Assembly: GCF_018448905.1 (NCBI RefSeq)
Contig: NZ_RCWA01000032.1
Coordinates: 1 to 54,676, forward strand
Reading direction: 5' to 3'
Source: Photorhabdus heterorhabditis
GTDB taxonomy: Bacteria; Pseudomonadota; Gammaproteobacteria; Enterobacterales; Enterobacteriaceae
DNA: 54,676 nt
The notes beneath the pieces were generated by a model, which was not told where the DNA came from, ran no database searches, and saw only the letters and a list, made by a program, of their open reading frames with translations. Positions 42,824 to 50,002 of this stretch are shown here, one piece after another. Position numbers and translations under genes: made by a program. Within the stretch, counting starts at the first letter, position 1, and each line of letters starts with the position of its first letter.

Positions 42824-43159
42824 TTAGTACCAAATCAACATAGAAATAAGGCAAACAACAACTAACCCACTCAGTGCACTTGTCAGAATAAATTGCTTCC
42901 TCAGCCTTTCACAGCGAAGCACCACTTCTGGATCATGATGGTCAAGATAACGTTGTGAATTGATATAGCGCACTAACCGAATCTGCTTATTGAGCTGTCC
43001 ATGAGTAGTAAAAAAACCGTTACCGTCTACTGATTGGTAAAGCAAGGGATCGGACTGGCGAAGAATAGACAGCAATGCCCGCAGCGAAGAGAAGTAGCGC
43101 ATCATATTCATAATGCAGACAAGACACAGCGCCCAAAACAGCGCAATTGTACTGAACAT
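42824..43159 (-). CDS. uspB: Universal stress protein B
   Basis: UspB is a sigma-S-controlled inner-membrane protein linked to ethanol tolerance in E. coli. It is 111 residues, the same length as E. coli, with helices at about 1-20 and 88-110. The start at 43159 ([18 protein letters not shown]) has an AAGGAGGGG ribosome site. It normally sits divergent from uspA across a short spacer; here uspA is 6.4 kb away. Confidence 0.96.
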
Positions 43160-43632
43160 AATCCCCTCCTTAGAATGGTTAGCCAAAGCTGTCACAAAAG
43201 GAAAAAATCAAAATTGCAGGCGGCGACGTCTTATATTTATTGTAGGAAAGATAGTCAGATAGTACAAAAAAACCTTCTTTGGAGCAAAGTTATTGTCTTT
43301 CTTTAGAGTGGCGGTTAAGTCGTGGTGATTGTAGTAATAGTCAGAAGCTTTAAGCCTTTCAAGTGATGGCCTGCTGGTAGTGAGCGTGGAAAGGGCAATC
43401 CATCCTCCAGGCTTTCTGAGCAGGACTCTGGACATCAGGGAAAATTCGATTGTATTTGTGATAATATGCATTTGAATAGGATTGAAGGGCTTATCAGAAG
43501 TGACTCCTGTCAGAATCACACGGTTAGAGTTGAAACATTTATGAACATTTTTTGGTGGAAGTGGAGAAGCATAATTATTCCATCAAATACGCCTGAAGAA
43601 AGATTATTAACATAATCCACAATAAAGAAAAA
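43160..43632. other. Left edge of the uspB-uspA island
   Basis: This stretch holds the uspB promoter side. A 103-codon minus-strand frame (43208-43519) includes the relatively GC-rich segment KPGGWIALSTLTTSRPSLER, but I recognise no family and see no good ribosome site. It may be a remnant of an older gene at the insertion edge. Confidence 0.35.
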
Positions 43633-44829
43633 TTAATTAACTAAGACTTGGTGTATAAGGAAAACATATAGCGACCAAGAAAATACATTTGTTATGACTA
43701 AGTATTTTTTCACAGAATTGATCCTGTCTATAATAAAAACAAAAAATAATGACAACAAAAATAGACAAAGAGAATGATGGATATTTATTAAAGACAAAAA
43801 TATACTTACAGGGACAAAAAAAACAAACATTAAAATAGTAAGCCAGAAAATTCTAGTTAGATATAAATATTGATTAGTGATACCAATTGAGGTTAGGTAA
43901 AGGAAAAAGTCTTTCATTATTACATCAAAATATGATGCAGAGCTTATTATATTAAGAGAAAGCATCAGATAAGAAAGAACAATAAGATATGTAAATTCAT
44001 TGAAAGAAATATATTTTTCATTAAAGAAAAGAACAATTATAATTGAAAAAAAAGATATTAAGAGTTTAGCTATTAATCTAAATGAATAATCAGGACTAAA
44101 TATGAATTTTAATAATATAAAGGTGATGTTTTTAAAGAAAGAAGAGTTTTTTATAGAGTGTGTTTTTTTGTCTTTTTTAAGAATAGAGAAATTTATCCTG
44201 AAATTATCCGATAAATATAAAGATGAAAAAATTAAAAATAAACAAAGAAATAATAAGGGGTAATAATTATATAACAATAAAGGTATAGATAAGGATATAA
44301 TAAATAAAATAAATCCCATTAATATAGACTTTAAGAATAAAATTTGCAATGAAACTAATAAAAGCAAAATTGCGATAATTAATACATTAGTTTCTATTGA
44401 AGAAGATAATGATTCATTAGTGTAATCTCTGAAAAAAAGGCTAGAAAGGAAAGGTAATAACAAAGGAATATCAATTATAAGATATGTAATATAATCAACT
44501 AATCTACGCGCATTTCTCTTTAAAGGCAAAGTTTTTAAAAATAGATCGCTGTCATTACTCATTATAGATTTTTTTTGCGCTCCTATCCAAAACACAAAAA
44601 TACCTACAATTAATGACCAATAAATAAGGGAGCTATATAATTCCCTCATTGAAAGAAATGACATTATTGGTATTGATAACAATCTCATTTGTGAAATAAA
44701 TGGGACTGCCATAGGAGAAATCATTAACAATATAAGTAAAAAAAATAACACTCTTTTCTTTAATAAATTAAATGTATTATTAATATAATACATTATTCTC
44801 CATGATATAATTTTATATATACTAAACAT
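43633..44829 (-). CDS. Multi-spanning membrane protein, probable ABC exporter permease
   Basis: 398 residues, with ten or more predicted hydrophobic segments separated by short Lys/Asn-rich loops. The DNA and protein are extremely AT-rich and Ile/Leu/Phe/Ser/Lys-rich. The start at 44829 has a GAGGTGAAA ribosome site. Its role as the permease partner of the ABC ATPase at 45312-45899 is inferred from position in the same operon; no permease signature is clear. It probably exports, or gives immunity to, the product of the MNIO locus. Confidence 0.6.
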   Translation of the reverse strand: MFSIYKIISWRIMYYINNTFNLLKKRVLFFLLILLMISPMAVPFISQMRLLSIPIMSFLSMRELYSSLIYWSLIVGIFVFWIGAQKKSIMSNDSDLFLKTLPLKRNARRLVDYITYLIIDIPLLLPFLSSLFFRDYTNESLSSSIETNVLIIAILLLLVSLQILFLKSILMGFILFIISLSIPLLLYNYYPLLFLCLFLIFSSLYLSDNFRINFSILKKDKKTHSIKNSSFFKNITFILLKFIFSPDYSFRLIAKLLISFFSIIIVLFFNEKYISFNEFTYLIVLSYLMLSLNIISSASYFDVIMKDFFLYLTSIGITNQYLYLTRIFWLTILMFVFFVPVSIFLSLINIHHSLCLFLLSLFFVFIIDRINSVKKYLVITNVFSWSLYVFLIHQVLVN

Positions 44830-44869
44830 CTGTTTCACCTCAACTTTATCGTAAAAAAATGCAACGCGG

Positions 44870-45308
44870 TTATTGTTTAATATTATCAACAAAATCTAAT
44901 ATTTCACGACGACATATATTCCATGAGTTCCCAAAATTAAATATATGACCTTCGTTCTCAATGGTAACTAATTTTCTATTTTGGTGACCAATAGTAAATT
45001 TAACTGATTGTTCCCAAGGCGCTACTTCATCTTCTCGTCCATGCAATATTAGCATATCAGTTGTTACTATTGCTATAAATAAGATAAGATGAATGAGTAA
45101 CGAAAGCATTGTTGAAAGAAATTTTTTCTGAGCTGTATAAAAATTTTGTTTTATTATCTTCAATTGAAAACCATTCTTGAAGTGTTTTTCCGTTTTTATA
45201 TATAATCCATGATAATAAAGTTTCTCCTTGAATGGTTTTTAGGAAAGACACATATGGTGCACAGAATAGGTTATTTTCTGAAGAGGCGTTCTTTATTGGT
45301 TTGTTCAT
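44870..45308 (-). pseudogene. Broken S9/prolyl-oligopeptidase-like serine peptidase
   Basis: The first part (45308 to about 45060, from MNKPIKNASSENNLFCAPYV) resembles the start of a beta-propeller domain (GETLLSWIIYKNGKTLQEWF). It ends at a TGA in SNSNN. Overlapping in another frame, TTDMLILHGREDEVAPWEQS ... TIENEGHIF is the C-terminal end of an alpha/beta-hydrolase peptidase, with acid Asp and catalytic His. The middle, including the Ser nucleophile, is missing, so a frame-shifting deletion is likely. In an intact locus it could have been the leader-peptide protease. Confidence 0.6.
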
Positions 45309-45311
45309 AAT

Positions 45312-45899
45312 TTATCTCTTGAAGTAGGTTATAGAGATAGTATTTGGATCAATAATATTATTGAATTTCAAATCATGAGAGGCAAAGATAATTAAATTAC
45401 GATCTTTAATTTTCATAAGAATTGAAATAAGATATTTAATTGAATCTTGATCTAATCCATTAGTGGGTTCGTCCAACACGAGAAGAATATCTAAATACAT
45501 GAGAGCTGTTACCAACATAAATTTCTTAGCGGTACCTAATGACATGTCAGAAAACCTAACATTCATAAATTCACGTAATTTGAAGCCGTTGATTAGATCA
45601 TTTTTTGTTTGAGGAGAGCAAGGTTGCAATGATTCAATTAAATTTATATACTCATATCCTTTAATAAAACCATATATAGGACATTTTTCAGGGACATATA
45701 ATTTTTTTTCTTTATAGATAATCTTACCAGAATCAGGTTTAATTATACCCGCTAAGATACTTAAGAGAGTTGATTTGCCAGATCCATTAATACCATCAAT
45801 ACGGACTAAACCATTTGATGGAAATTTGTAACTAGCATTGCTAATTATTTTATTATTACTAAAGCTCTTATTAATATTAATTATTTCAATCATCTTCAT
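45312..45899 (-). CDS. ABC transporter ATP-binding protein
   Basis: 195 residues. Walker A GINGSGKST (36-44), signature MSLGTAKK (about 119-126, diverged from LSGGQ), Walker B ILLVLDEPTNGLD (138-150) and H-loop His175 (ASHD). Architecture fits exporter-type ATPases used for peptide export or self-immunity. The start at 45899 follows AGGTGA by 5 nt. A membrane gene in the same operon is the likely permease. The transported substrate is unknown. Confidence 0.88.
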   Translation of the reverse strand: MKMIEIININKSFSNNKIISNASYKFPSNGLVRIDGINGSGKSTLLSILAGIIKPDSGKIIYKEKKLYVPEKCPIYGFIKGYEYINLIESLQPCSPQTKNDLINGFKLREFMNVRFSDMSLGTAKKFMLVTALMYLDILLVLDEPTNGLDQDSIKYLISILMKIKDRNLIIFASHDLKFNNIIDPNTISITYFKR

Positions 45900-46428
45900 A
45901 ATCACCTGATAATATAAAATCAATATTTTCTTGATACGACTAAACGTGACAATACATTAGATGTGTAAATCATTTAAAAGTTCAATTTAATTTTGGAGTT
46001 GTAAAAGAATACAAAGAAATGGATTAAAAATATCATTAACTATTTCATAATGTCAGTATATACCCAATGGATTTCAAGATGGATCGCGGCGGCAAGGGAG
46101 CGAATCCCCGGGAGCATAGATAACTATGTCGTAGAGAACTATGTGACCGGGGTGAGTGAGTGCAGCCAACAAAGAAGCAACTTGAAAGATAACGGGCATA
46201 ACATTTAATTCAATATACTTAAGGTTATAAGGTTTAATTGCAATTTATTTATTGTTTTTTGCTGATGAATTCTAAACAGTGGATCTATCATTTATTAACA
46301 AAAAATACTACTCAATATTATGATATTCATCCACCTTTTGCCTGTGGGAATATCAAAGATGATTCACATAGATAAATATCTAACTTATATAGTATTACGT
46401 AAAGGTATATAAAATTGATGTTTAAAGT
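45900..46428. other. Gap between the MNIO gene and the ABC genes
   Basis: It contains ERIC copy 6. Around it I see only short frames without ribosome sites: a 36-codon plus-strand frame at 46265-46375 (ending CGNIKDDSHR) and minus-strand frames of 17-28 codons. None is convincing as a precursor peptide. The ABC operon promoter should lie between 45900 and 46058. Confidence 0.4.
46059..46200 (-). repeat. ERIC repeat, copy 6 (142 bp, with 15-bp internal insertion)
   Basis: ERIC in reverse orientation. Compared with the other copies it has 15 extra bases after AACTATGT, including a second AACTATGT, consistent with slippage or imperfect duplication. Confidence 0.88.
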
Positions 46429-47319
46429 TTATATTCTACACTCCCATGAAGCGTTGTTATTAAGATCAAGATAATATGGACTAGAGGATAAAATATTTTT
46501 AGCCTTTTCTAAAGTGAATAAAATATCCTTCATATCAAAATTAGCGTCTCGTTCTAAAACTATTCCATTCGGGGTGATTTCTGAACAGGTGAATTCTAAA
46601 AGTTCCCATACTGGTTGAGAGATACTATGGGCGTGACTATCTATATAGAGGCCGTCACGTAGAAAACCGCCAGCAATATGTATTTCATAAACATATGATA
46701 AATCAATTTCACTTAAAAATTGATAGGGATCAAAATTATGATTTTTGGAATTCAAATAGAGGTTATTAAGATCTAATAATAATCCACAACTTGTTTCGTT
46801 TAGTATATTATTGATGAATTCGGATTCTGTGAACTCGTCATCACCCATGTTAAAGTAATATGTTATATTTTCTATCAGAAAAGGCAAATTTGTTTTTCTT
46901 TTTATATATTTTATTTTTTCTACAATTAAATCTAAATTCTTCTTGTTACGTCGTATAGGTAAAAGTTGATTAGCATCAATATCAGATATTTTTATGTATG
47001 ATAAATGGTCACTGAACCAATAAGGTTTCCATTTGTTAATACAATTTATGGTGTTTTCTATATAACTTTCATCAAGTGCTTCAGCTGAACCTAATGAAGT
47101 TTTTAGACTATGAAAAACACATGGTTTTATTTTCAATAAGTTAGCCATAGCATCAGGAATAGTATTAGTCACGAAAAATAAATCTGTTATTATTTCTATA
47201 AAATCGAAAGAGTTTAAATTTAATAATAAATCGTTCATAATTTCATGGCGGAAGTTAATGCCGACACCGGAGGGTAATTTGTCAGACATTTTTCTTATCA
47301 TAATATCATTTAAAATCAT
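46429..47319 (-). CDS. DUF692 multinuclear iron oxidative enzyme (MNIO), RiPP-modifying type
   Basis: This 296-residue TIM-barrel enzyme belongs to the family of MbnB, TglH and BufB, which use a di- or tri-iron centre and oxygen to modify Cys, Asp or other residues of ribosomal peptides. The family's metal-ligand blocks are all present: VFHSLKTSLGS (His70), WFSDHLSY (Asp104, His105), LIENITYY (Glu150), GLLLDLNNLY (Asp183), YEIHIAGG (His214) and IDSHAH (Asp227, His229). The start at 47319 has a GGGGTGA ribosome site and overlaps the upstream partner gene by 14 nt. Its substrate peptide is not certain; a 25-residue candidate is encoded at 48612-48689. Confidence 0.88.
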   Translation of the reverse strand: MILNDIMIRKMSDKLPSGVGINFRHEIMNDLLLNLNSFDFIEIITDLFFVTNTIPDAMANLLKIKPCVFHSLKTSLGSAEALDESYIENTINCINKWKPYWFSDHLSYIKISDIDANQLLPIRRNKKNLDLIVEKIKYIKRKTNLPFLIENITYYFNMGDDEFTESEFINNILNETSCGLLLDLNNLYLNSKNHNFDPYQFLSEIDLSYVYEIHIAGGFLRDGLYIDSHAHSISQPVWELLEFTCSEITPNGIVLERDANFDMKDILFTLEKAKNILSSSPYYLDLNNNASWECRI

Positions 47320-48169
47320 TATTAATCACCCCGTATATTTTTAATTTGTTTATTAAATGGATTGTATTATTGTGTTCTTTATGAAATTCTAATTCTTTCA
47401 TAATATCATTAATAAATGGAAGATTAAAAAAATATTTACTTGAATTTTCAATGAAAATAGATGTTTTATTATCTATTCTTAATGTATGGACTTTTTTATT
47501 TTTCCATGATTTATAAATTAGTATTTTAACCTCACTGCAATGCTCATCATCATAGGAATTATGTTTAATTTTCTCTGTTTTATTATTTCTCAAATCATGT
47601 ATTTTTCTTATAATATGGGGAGGTAAGTTTATAATAATAGGTTGGGATAAATAAAGTAAATTATACTGATTGTTTTTTTCTCCTTTACATATGGAATTTA
47701 ACTCATTATCTATTAGCCCTAAAGATACATGTAATATGTTTTTTTCATATTCAAATATATTTTTACAATCAATATTTAAAAGACTCCATAATTCAGTTTC
47801 ATGAGGCATTGATAATAAAAGATCAAACGCGTACTGAGCTGTGTTGTTTCTGTATTCTTTTTTTTGTTTTCTATAATGAATCCAAAATTCATTTAATAGA
47901 GAATTTTTTAATTTCATATTTAATAATGGTATATAGCGTTTAACGTTATTTAGCAATCTTTCATCTAATATATTGCTGATAATCAACATATTCTTATGGT
48001 TTTTATTTATTATATCTTCGACTTCTTTTTTAATATTTTTGTCAGGAAAATCATTTATGGCTTCAAAACTTCCTCCTTTTATAATGTCCATTAATCTATA
48101 TGGATTTGTAATAATTATCCCTAAAGCTTTTTGAACTTCCTTGTCATGATAAAAATCACTAGCGTTCAT
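47306..48169 (-). CDS. MNIO partner protein (BufC/TglI-like, putative peptide-binding)
   Basis: 287 residues, AT-rich. The N-terminal helical half (MNASDFYHDKEVQKALGIII) and the C-terminal part (ILIYKSWKNKKVHTLRIDNK, then FINDIMKELEFH) resemble the DUF2063-like partners that present precursor peptides to MNIO enzymes. Similarity is weak, so the call leans on overlap with the MNIO gene. The start at 48169 is preferred, with GAAGGG 9 nt upstream lying inside an ERIC repeat. A frame open through the ERIC could add 32 residues from 48265. Confidence 0.65.
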   Translation of the reverse strand: MNASDFYHDKEVQKALGIIITNPYRLMDIIKGGSFEAINDFPDKNIKKEVEDIINKNHKNMLIISNILDERLLNNVKRYIPLLNMKLKNSLLNEFWIHYRKQKKEYRNNTAQYAFDLLLSMPHETELWSLLNIDCKNIFEYEKNILHVSLGLIDNELNSICKGEKNNQYNLLYLSQPIIINLPPHIIRKIHDLRNNKTEKIKHNSYDDEHCSEVKILIYKSWKNKKVHTLRIDNKTSIFIENSSKYFFNLPFINDIMKELEFHKEHNNTIHLINKLKIYGVINNDFK

Positions 48170-48174
48170 AATTC

Positions 48175-48302
48175 TATACCCTTCATCTTTCAAGCTGCTG
48201 CTTTGTTGGCTGCGTTCATTTACCCCAGTCACATTGTTATCTATGCATCCCGGGGATGCGTTCACTTGCCACCGCCCTGCAACTTGAAATCTATTGGGTA
48301 TA
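48175..48302 (+). repeat. ERIC repeat, copy 7
   Basis: A 128-bp ERIC of the 'CCCTTCATCTTTCAAGCTGC' type, placed between the small membrane gene and the MNIO partner gene, inside the presumed operon. Confidence 0.9.
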
Positions 48303-48333
48303 GTTATGCTTAGATAATTATCTTATTTATAAT

Positions 48334-48612
48334 TCATGTATTCTGTTTACGACGAGCAATGATATATGGGATACAACATGAATACGCAAGGACAAATGAA
48401 GCATAATGTAAAAAATCATCATTTGTTGTGTCTATATTTAGTAAAGGGATAAAATCAAAATGAAAAACATAAAGATGAAAAGCAGATAGAGATAATGGTA
48501 ATATTATAGCATAAAGATGATGATAGATATTATCTGATATTAAAAGCTTTTTTATGAAAACATATGTAGGTCTTAGTATTATCAAAGATAATAATATATA
48601 GAGAAACCCCAT
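48334..48612 (-). CDS. Small membrane protein upstream of the MNIO genes
   Basis: 92 residues with three hydrophobic segments (about 2-22, 33-52, 68-86), no family recognised. The start has an excellent ribosome site (GAGGAG, 6-nt spacing) located inside the preceding 25-codon ORF, whose stop overlaps this ATG (TAATG). It is therefore translationally coupled to that ORF. An immunity or transport helper role is possible but only inferred. Confidence 0.55.
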   Translation of the reverse strand: MGFLYILLSLIILRPTYVFIKKLLISDNIYHHLYAIILPLSLSAFHLYVFHFDFIPLLNIDTTNDDFLHYASFVLAYSCCIPYIIARRKQNT

Positions 48613-48689
48613 TAATTACTCCTCATATATCCATATGCAGTACTTATATCGCTAACAATCTCAATAATGATTTCTTCTATACTCATCAT
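48612..48689 (-). CDS. 25-residue ORF, candidate RiPP precursor peptide
   Basis: ATG-ATG start at 48689 or 48686, 25 codons, stop overlapping the next start. The peptide has an acidic, Ile-rich helix-like first part (SIEEIIIEIVSDIS), as in leader peptides, and the polar tail TAYGYMRSN, which could be a core. A GCGGAA sequence lies 6-7 nt before the first ATG. It has no Cys, unlike many MNIO substrates, though some MNIO enzymes act on Asp, Asn or aromatic residues. It is the first gene of the putative operon. It could also be just an upstream coupling ORF. Confidence 0.45.
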   Translation of the reverse strand: MMSIEEIIIEIVSDISTAYGYMRSN

Positions 48690-48743
48690 TTTTATTCCGC
48701 GATTCTTTAATCCGTATAGGAGATCTGTATTTATATATCGATA

Positions 48744-48870
48744 TATACCTGTTATCTTTCAAGTTGCCTCTTTGTTGGCTGCACTCTCTCACCCCGGTCA
48801 CATCGTTATCTATGCTCTCGGGGATTCGCTCCCTTGCCGTCGCGATCCATCTTGAAATCTATTGGGTATA
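48744..48870 (+). repeat. ERIC repeat, copy 8
   Basis: Full-length 127-bp ERIC, close to copies 1 and 5. It lies 54 bp upstream of the 25-codon ORF, in the place of its promoter region. Confidence 0.92.
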
Positions 48871-49542
48871 TATAGATGACAAATTACATATTAATTAATT
48901 TCGTTAATTAATCTATATCAAATGATTATCAGGCTAACAATGGTCATCTATTTTCCATATATTATAATATGAATAATATTGACCATTTCTCCTTTTTATC
49001 CTTAATATTTTTTAATGTCAATGATATTTTAACATTAAAAATTAAGCTTTCTTTATTTTTTGTTAACTTATTGAAATATTATAAAAATAAAATAATTATT
49101 TTACCCTTGTTGAAGAAAAAATTAACACTAGCATATAAGAATTTAAATAATGTTTTTAAAATTAGTAAAATCAGATGGATAAGTAATGATTTAGTGAATG
49201 AACACAGATTAATTGGAGATGTCCTGTTCCTGTTTGCGAGCCGTATCAGTAATATCTACCTCAGATTATTAGGATTTCACGTAAGAAATGCTATTTGAGA
49301 ATGGAAAGACATAAGGTGGACAAGAAAGACCATAAAACCAGAGTCTGATTTTGTTCTCCATCAAGTGGCAGGAATAGCGATTGTGGTATATGTTGTTGGG
49401 TGAATGTTCTTTGTTCGATAGCTAAATACGATGAGTTGTGATCGAAACAACACTTTCAGGACATTCTAAACAGTAATAAACATAGGATAGTGGCAATTTT
49501 CCCTGCCAACTCATTAATTAGCATTATGGAAGGAGTTCGCTT
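48871..49542. other. AT-rich right edge of the island and uspA promoter region
   Basis: A 109-codon plus-strand frame (48969-49298) is rich in Lys, Leu, Ile and Asn with no recognisable domain and no good ribosome site; I do not call it a gene. From about 49300 the base composition returns to normal and the stretch up to 49542 should hold the uspA promoter. Confidence 0.4.
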
Positions 49543-49974
49543 ATGGCTTACAAACATATTCTTGTTGCGGTTGATTTATCCCCGGAAAGTCAGGTGTTGG
49601 TGCAAAAAGCTGTTTCCATGGCAAAACCGTACAATGCTAAAGTTTCCTTGATCCATGTTGATGTTAACTATTCTGATCTCTACACCGGTTTGATTGACGT
49701 TAATCTCGGTGACATGCAGCAACGTATTACTGATGAAACCCGCAATGCGTTAAAAGAGCTTTCCACAGAGTCAGATTATGACATTCAGGAAACTTTGAGT
49801 GGTAGCGGTGATCTGGGCCAAGTATTGGTTGATGCAATTAAAAAATATGACATAGATCTGGTTGTTTGTGGGCATCATCAGGATTTTTGGAGCAAACTAA
49901 TGTCTTCTGCTCGTCAGTTAATTAACACTGTTCATGTTGATATGTTGATTGTTCCTCTGCGTGATGATGAATAA
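49543..49974 (+). CDS. uspA: Universal stress protein A
   Basis: UspA is a cytoplasmic stress protein of the Usp fold, 143 residues (E. coli 144). It opens [20 protein letters not shown] and has the conserved end [20 protein letters not shown] then [12 protein letters not shown]. The ribosome site is GGAAGGAG. Its usual divergent neighbour uspB lies 6.4 kb to the left. Confidence 0.97.
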
Positions 49975-50002
49975 CCACAAATTGAAAAATTATTCGGTTA
50001 AA

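Follow-up and report, generated by a model that had tools for sequence, protein, structure and literature searches.

A Photorhabdus heterorhabditis gene block best read as a relic of a new MNIO-RiPP lineage

Contig NZ_RCWA01000032.1 of Photorhabdus heterorhabditis (positions 1–54,676, assembly GCF_018448905.1; hereafter the window, to which all coordinates refer) carries an AT-rich block built around a gene for a multinuclear non-heme iron-dependent oxidative enzyme (MNIO, DUF692). The block lies between two genes that we take to be uspB (42824–43195, minus strand) and uspA (49543, plus strand). The stretch 43633–48169 is best read as a decayed member, a relic, of a new lineage of MNIO clusters for ribosomally synthesized and post-translationally modified peptides (RiPPs). 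With moderate confidence, we regard the block as what is left of a RiPP cluster that is AT-rich and patchily distributed, appears to have lost its precursor and is probably no longer productive. A preliminary description had drawn the cluster as 43633–48689; its corrected extent is about 43633–48169, and both that observation and its interpretation as a RiPP locus hold in part.

The GC content is 23–35% in the 1-kb steps from 43001 to 50000, while elsewhere it ranges from 32 to 49% and is at least 40% in 36 of 47 steps. The genes of the MNIO cluster have a GC content of 23–29%, which bears out the AT-rich minus-strand cluster first described. In order of transcription on the minus strand, the block consists of a 287-aa gene, the MNIO gene, a repeat resembling the enterobacterial repetitive intergenic consensus (ERIC), an ABC ATPase gene, a broken alpha/beta-hydrolase gene and a polytopic membrane gene (Table 1). 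All five of these genes had been assigned to the cluster and are retained as members; a small membrane protein and the region up to 48689, also assigned to it, are removed.

The MNIO and its relatives

The MNIO matches PF05114 with an E value of 2e-70 and 237.5 bits (gathering score 25), which places it in the superfamily. The iron ligands of TglH, as listed in a passage of PMC10880893, are H71, H107, E151, D184, N187, H216, D229, H231 and E258, and residues H70, H105, E150, D183, N186, H214, D227, H229 and E256 of the window enzyme align with them (9/9), so that the original reading of a DUF692 enzyme with a complete set of metal ligands is upheld. Unlike TglH, the window enzyme carries an Asp in the ERD motif, and it has Leu72 at the place of the TglH-specific Asn73. 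Its best NCBIfam scores, MNIO_BufB at 198 bits (cut-off 310) and the HvfB family at 180 bits (cut-off 360), are far below the cut-offs, and the methanobactin model TIGR04159 gives 51 bits (cut-off 325). With a profile of the window MNIO and its P. khanii relative, TglH (8hci) scored 97 bits versus 148 bits for 3bww.

A tree built from 60 MNIOs pairs the window enzyme with that of P. khanii (support 97/89), and 54 other MNIOs form a closed group (100/99) that excludes both. We read this group as the bufferin/Hvf type because a DUF2063-like gene is found nearby in 53 of its 54 members. MbnB, a Photorhabdus MbnB-like enzyme, TglH and the MNIO of locus L072 also fall outside it. For this tree, sequences more than 72% identical to another were dropped (including those of loci L065 and L067), after which 64 remained; those of L066, L055 and L096 and the first MNIO of L070 were also taken out. 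An earlier mixture-model tree was discarded because of its absurd branch lengths.

The gene preceding the MNIO gene overlaps it by 14 nt (47306–47319), as first described, and the order partner-then-MNIO is confirmed. Its product has no Pfam hit near or above the cut-off, no NCBIfam hit (MbnC included) and no DUF2063 hit at an E value of 1 or better, and a probability of 0.1% in hhalign against nine BufC proteins, where the query profile was a weak one of two rows. A profile search of the PDB was empty, a plasmid search gave no match for either the window partner or its P. khanii counterpart, and no ORF of the 98 MNIO loci inspected matches either of them at an E value of 1. We infer that this gene encodes a partner that would capture a short leader peptide.

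These features separate the block from the characterized systems. It has an MNIO in common with the bufferin/Hvf systems (BufABC, HvfABC), but its partner precedes the MNIO instead of following it and gives no DUF2063 match; unlike bufferin/Hvf, it shows no Sec-signal Cys-rich precursor before the MNIO (open reading frame (ORF) lists, judged by eye) and no DoxX hit among the seven window ORFs scanned. It resembles methanobactin loci (MbnABC) in its combination of MNIO and partner and in the ERD-motif Asp, and differs in the low TIGR04159 score, in the lack of an MbnC hit for the partner and in having no MbnT or MATE hit among the same seven ORFs. With the pearlin/3-thiaglutamate pair TglHI it shares the nine iron ligands and a DUF2063-free partner; it differs in Leu72 and in having no ORF of PEARL-ligase size in the block. 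The preliminary description had set the locus apart from those of bufferins and methanobactins, and this is borne out by the position in the tree, the non-DUF2063 partner and the P. khanii relative with the same partner-MNIO order, a same-subfamily ABC ATPase and a conserved small Cys peptide.

Wider MNIO scans covered 295 genomes of the family, 369 of the class and 299 of the phylum, in partly overlapping sets, and among the matches listed only P. khanii lay near the pair. The best other MNIO among these matches scored 219 bits versus 541–575 bits for the pair, whose scores are inflated because the profile was built from these two MNIOs. Pattern scans of genome contigs confirmed P. khanii alone among the matches listed, and a pattern scan of viral contigs gave no confirmed match. 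A same-strand DUF2063-like ORF was present in 92 of the 98 inspected loci (which comprise 92 distinct MNIO sequences), the exceptions being L065, L066, L067, L070, L072 and L112. The lineage of the window MNIO is small and patchy, and is so far known only from Photorhabdus.

Three of the exceptional loci are described here in their own right. L065 (1501–2418; genome G124, from the same family as the window) encodes an MNIO 78% identical to TglH, and is probably a 3-thiaglutamate-type cluster. Outside the pair, the MNIO of L072 (1144–3064; G480) scores best; a 59-aa four-Cys ORF with no obvious signal peptide lies upstream of it and a 245-aa gene with no DUF2063 match downstream. L070 (1161–3156; G005) has two tandem MNIO-like genes after a 25-codon ORF (MQKKTSVEIEVEVEDKEMTCGSYNK), and probably represents the methanobactin-like operon type reported, in a passage of PMC3621798, for P. 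luminescens TT01. The methanobactin-like MNIO of TT01 is different from the window MNIO.

We found no description of the present cluster in the literature on Photorhabdus MNIOs and RiPPs, a provisional result as subscription papers lay mostly outside the search; passages of PMC11002830, PMC3621798 and PMC10676414 contain none. Two papers concern MNIO chemistry, PMC12257519, of which the available passages do not mention Photorhabdus, and PMC12636437.

The P. khanii cluster and its candidate peptide

The only close relative found for the window MNIO (40% identity over 274 aa) belongs to a larger and apparently intact cluster in P. khanii NC19 (G009; NZ_AYSJ01000015, L031 5041–13362). There too the MNIO gene is preceded by an overlapping gene, which at 285 aa is similar in size to the window partner. 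Downstream are genes for a PIG-L/GT2-like protein (both domains below the Pfam cut-off), PhyH, a HisC-like aminotransferase, an HQLTH-motif protein that has no family hit, TauD, a membrane protein and an ABC ATPase; PhyH and TauD are both 2-oxoglutarate-type oxygenases. The two clusters therefore agree in the order of partner and MNIO and in an ABC protein of the same subfamily with a permease, whereas the P. khanii cluster has in addition the PIG-L/GT2-like, PhyH, aminotransferase, TauD and HQLTH genes and a candidate precursor.

This candidate is a 23-codon ORF with two Cys residues (MEIEFIEESEPSVEVLCNSVDCP), located about 50 bases before the P. khanii partner and behind a Shine-Dalgarno-like AAGGAG. 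Genome G001, of a third species, has a similar sequence (MEIELIEESEPEVEVLCNSVDCP); after it come 79 codons from the start of the partner gene, which has an early stop, and then DNA taken for a transposase. The two peptide genes differ in six codons, of which four are synonymous and two replaced, and the last eleven residues, VEVLCNSVDCP, are identical. Because the codon changes are mostly silent and these eleven residues are identical, we take the 23-aa ORF to be a real gene. It is present in 2 of 13 Photorhabdus genomes (P. khanii and G001), and the search for a khanii-type precursor in the window genome found none (best E 0.5). A complete lack of conserved neighbours beside the MNIO in relatives had been named as an outcome that would refute the original claim, and the claim passes this test only in half: a comparable cluster occurs in 1 of 12 other Photorhabdus genomes and a khanii-type remnant in one more.

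No signal peptide is obvious by eye in the P. khanii precursor, and a short precursor of this kind is a likeness to methanobactin. According to a survey of the MNIO landscape (PMC12452194), precursors without a Sec signal accompany non-DUF2063 'type 2' partners, and the MNIO usually precedes its partner gene. The P. khanii arrangement fits the first of these rules and breaks the second.

The MNIO and the ABC ATPase are homologous between the two clusters (local shuffle z of 69 and 47, respectively), the ABC proteins being 33–36% identical. When the window ABC was searched in the P. khanii genome, the cluster ABC came first at 99.6 bits, with an orphan khanii-type copy at 97.6 bits. In the reverse search, the P. 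khanii ABC found an 84% orthologue on another contig of the window genome (371 bits), then the window ABC (99 bits), the next match having 43 bits.

Orphan khanii-type permease and ABC genes (loci L177, L178, L179 and L180) lie at an MNIO-free site between genes that are presumably mazG-like and pyrG-like in all four genomes examined (G000, G001, G009 and G011), and a piece of the TauD gene is also kept at this site in three of them. The G001 contig starts inside the permease gene and the G000 permease is broken; both frames are intact in G009 and G011, and G009 (P. khanii) has the orphan pair in addition to the full cluster elsewhere. The ratio of nonsynonymous to synonymous substitution rates (dN/dS) between G009 and G011 is 0.28 for the permease and 0.14 for the ABC gene, and that of the G009 and G011 orphan copies against the P. 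khanii cluster is 0.14–0.25. Upkeep of the transporter without adjacent producer genes is what an immunity module would show, though it may instead reflect export of something else.

The present state of the window copy

The remaining genes of the window cluster agree largely with what was first described. The assignment of an ABC ATPase with a membrane gene is supported by PF00005, by sequence motifs and by hydropathy. The peptidase-like gene is indeed broken, with disrupted frames, and its S9 similarity is weak: the C-terminal stretch (44870–45163) scores 17.5 bits against PF00326 (cut-off 22.6), covering profile positions 143–208 of 213, and the other piece (45057–45308) has no family hit. 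The uspB-uspA site of G006 has two remnants of the window membrane gene, one of 101 bp with 92% identity and one of 88 bp with 95%; a search of that locus (L161) with the P. khanii and window ABC proteins gave generic matches only, at 25–26%.

A relic is the likeliest present state, given that there is no recognisable precursor, that the hydrolase is broken and that ERIC repeats cut the locus. In the proposed mechanism, the partner would capture a short acidic leader peptide and hand the core to the MNIO, which would oxidise the peptide, in P. khanii most likely at its two Cys residues, after which the P. khanii tailoring enzymes would act. In the window type, removal of the leader would have fallen to the S9-type hydrolase, and export of the product or protection of its maker to the ABC pair. 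By analogy with P. khanii, the precursor gene should have stood immediately before the partner; it was probably lost as an ERIC repeat arrived next to the partner gene and linked it to what was left of an Hcp/DUF4225/immunity module. The original statement that the cluster once made, processed and exported a modified peptide fits in its "once", given the broken hydrolase, the precursor not found and the G006 remnants of the membrane gene; the chemistry, and any action of the ABC protein, hydrolase and permease on the product, are proposals.

Several points weigh against this interpretation. The window copy is without any detected precursor. Between the two clusters, the genes upstream of the MNIO are not significantly alike (z of −0.8 local and 2.1 global; 11 of 400 shuffles reached the observed global score, and among five unrelated control pairs one attained a global z of 2.3), nor are the permeases demonstrably homologous (z of 0.8 local and 1.7 global), and both are equivalent between the clusters by position only. 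The AlphaFold2 model of the partner, considered with respect to an RRE fold, has a predicted local distance difference test score (pLDDT) of 33 and was not used. The MNIO and ABC genes are separated by a 505-bp gap with an ERIC repeat, and may not form one operon. The tree program flags the window and P. khanii MNIOs as long branches of odd composition, and their pairing therefore rests also on gene order. Finally, horizontal transfer of the block, although we infer it, draws on GC content and patchiness only.

An alternative to which we give a modest share of belief is that the cluster still works, with a precursor that is elsewhere in the genome or too diverged, and a dispensable hydrolase. 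The frames of the MNIO, upstream, ABC and membrane genes are all open, and many MNIO precursors are hard to assign (PMC12452194); however, the ORFs of at least 20 aa next to the partner or MNIO include, as judged by eye, no convincing small Cys peptide, the window genome has no khanii-like peptide, and the ERIC repeat abuts the partner. Slightly less plausible still is the suggestion that partner and MNIO form a unit of just two genes, beside which the ABC, hydrolase and membrane genes lie as unconnected neighbours. The gap between the MNIO and ABC genes and the dissimilar permeases fit that suggestion, whereas the same-subfamily ABC in the P. khanii cluster, top hit for the window protein even though the orphan scores nearly as high, speaks against it. 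It is improbable that the MNIO modifies a protein or small molecule rather than a RiPP precursor: PMC12452194 allows that certain MNIO substrates are whole proteins, and the window yielded no precursor, but a conserved 23-aa gene stands directly before the partner in the P. khanii cluster.

The boundary with a type VI remnant

The MNIO cluster extends no further than the ERIC repeat that touches the start codon of the partner. The three ERIC-like repeats of the window, which were absent from the preliminary description, are listed with the other features in Table 1; the one between the MNIO and ABC genes is matched by similar repeats elsewhere in sister genomes and in Salmonella and E. coli records. 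Rfam gave three weak matches, all below the gathering score, two on the repeat at the cluster boundary and one on the membrane gene. Between the last repeat and the DNA common to the uspA sides of sister genomes is a stretch of 19% GC (48880–49217).

Table 1. Features of the AT-rich block in the window
Feature	Position	Strand	Evidence
Presumed transporter permease, a polytopic membrane protein of 398 aa	43633–44829	−	Hydropathy; no family hit
Broken alpha/beta-hydrolase (S9-peptidase-like), two pieces in different frames	44870–45308	−	Weak PF00326; overlapping frames
ABC transporter ATPase, 203 aa	45312–45923	−	PF00005, E 1e-14; motifs we take to be of Walker A, signature, Walker B and H-loop type
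ERIC-like repeat separating the MNIO and ABC genes	46057–46205		Repeat search
MNIO (DUF692, PF05114), 296 aa	46429–47319	−	PF05114 match, iron-ligand columns, P. khanii homologue
Putative MNIO partner gene, 287 aa	47306–48169	−	Open frame; position and size as P. khanii upstream gene
ERIC-like repeat touching partner start codon; boundary of MNIO cluster and type VI secretion-type remnant	48170–48302		
Immunity-like small membrane gene, outside MNIO cluster	48334–48612	−	Matches in L141, L144, L136
25-codon C-terminal tail of DUF4225 gene cut by ERIC repeat	48612–48689	−	Matches in L141, L144
ERIC-like repeat	48744–48872		Repeat search

The uspB-uspA site was compared in 12 other Photorhabdus genomes. 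It is empty in seven, holds an ERIC-type repeat alone in G004, and in three (G003, G011 and G012) contains an Hcp/DUF4225-type module or its remains, with no MNIO. Window positions 48301–48738 are 98.9% identical to G003 over 438 bp, 97.8% to G011 over 445 bp and 98.3% to G012 over 287 bp. The small membrane protein has a 96.7% identical 92-aa counterpart in L141, where it lies beside a DUF4225 gene, and in L144, and a 96.4% identical one over 84 aa in L136. The 25-aa tail is identical in 25 of 25 residues in L141 and 24 of 25 in L144, where it is in one frame with DUF4225 C-terminal sequence; in the window, the DUF4225 gene is cut at an ERIC repeat.

In G003, the neighbouring genes are an Hcp/TssD gene (TIGR03344, 199.5 bits) and a DUF4225 gene (PF13988, 124 bits), the latter with an ERIC repeat ahead of its end. 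A transposase-like gene interrupts the DUF4225 region of G011 and the Hcp frame is shifted, the 25-aa tail being still in one frame with the DUF4225 C-terminus; the G012 module is more decayed and lacks the 25-aa ORF. Loci L141, L144 and L136 are Hcp/DUF4225/immunity-like modules at this site, variously decayed or with an ERIC repeat or transposase-like gene breaking them up.

One DUF4225 protein is an antibacterial type VI secretion system effector, with a three-helix immunity protein of 89 aa coming after it, according to an excerpt of PMC9765294. Since the DNA here is nearly identical to part of an Hcp/DUF4225 module at MNIO-free sister sites, we read the tiny ORF as the tail of an effector, and the small membrane protein is best read as the immunity gene of a DUF4225 effector. 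The latter had been counted among the members of the MNIO cluster, a view contradicted by G003 and G011, which carry 98–99% identical DNA and no MNIO at the corresponding site. The 25-aa ORF was considered as a precursor and rejected, being shown by the sister loci to be a DUF4225 tail. It is accordingly very improbable that this ORF and the 92-aa membrane gene are MNIO precursor and accessory: although the ORF is upstream of the partner and MNIO, is coupled to the membrane gene and ends in Asn (an MNIO acting on a C-terminal Asn, MovX, appears in Table 1 of PMC12452194), nearly the same DNA occurs where there is no MNIO, and the excerpt of PMC9765294 describes the same pairing of effector and downstream immunity protein. 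An adjacent type VI effector/immunity remnant can mimic part of a RiPP cluster, and sister genomes at the same site tell the two apart.

For the relic that we take the window block to be, P. khanii, rather than the window strain, is the better place to seek a product. A more specific proposal, which we put forward tentatively and hold to be rather less probable than its contrary, is that Photorhabdus has an MNIO-RiPP lineage, one for which no report was found, that uses a partner class of its own. A 23-aa peptide whose core is LCNSVDCP would be oxidised at its two Cys residues and tailored further, the permease and ABC protein would provide self-immunity, and the window would represent a second, simpler branch. 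If true, tailoring by two 2-oxoglutarate oxygenases, an aminotransferase and a deacetylase/glycosyltransferase would lead to a toxic or metal-binding product, and the orphan permease/ABC genes would have been kept by species that lost the producer genes. In a genus noted for its antibiotics, the analysis thereby points to a candidate MNIO lineage whose partners are unassigned and whose candidate substrate is a very small peptide with two Cys residues.

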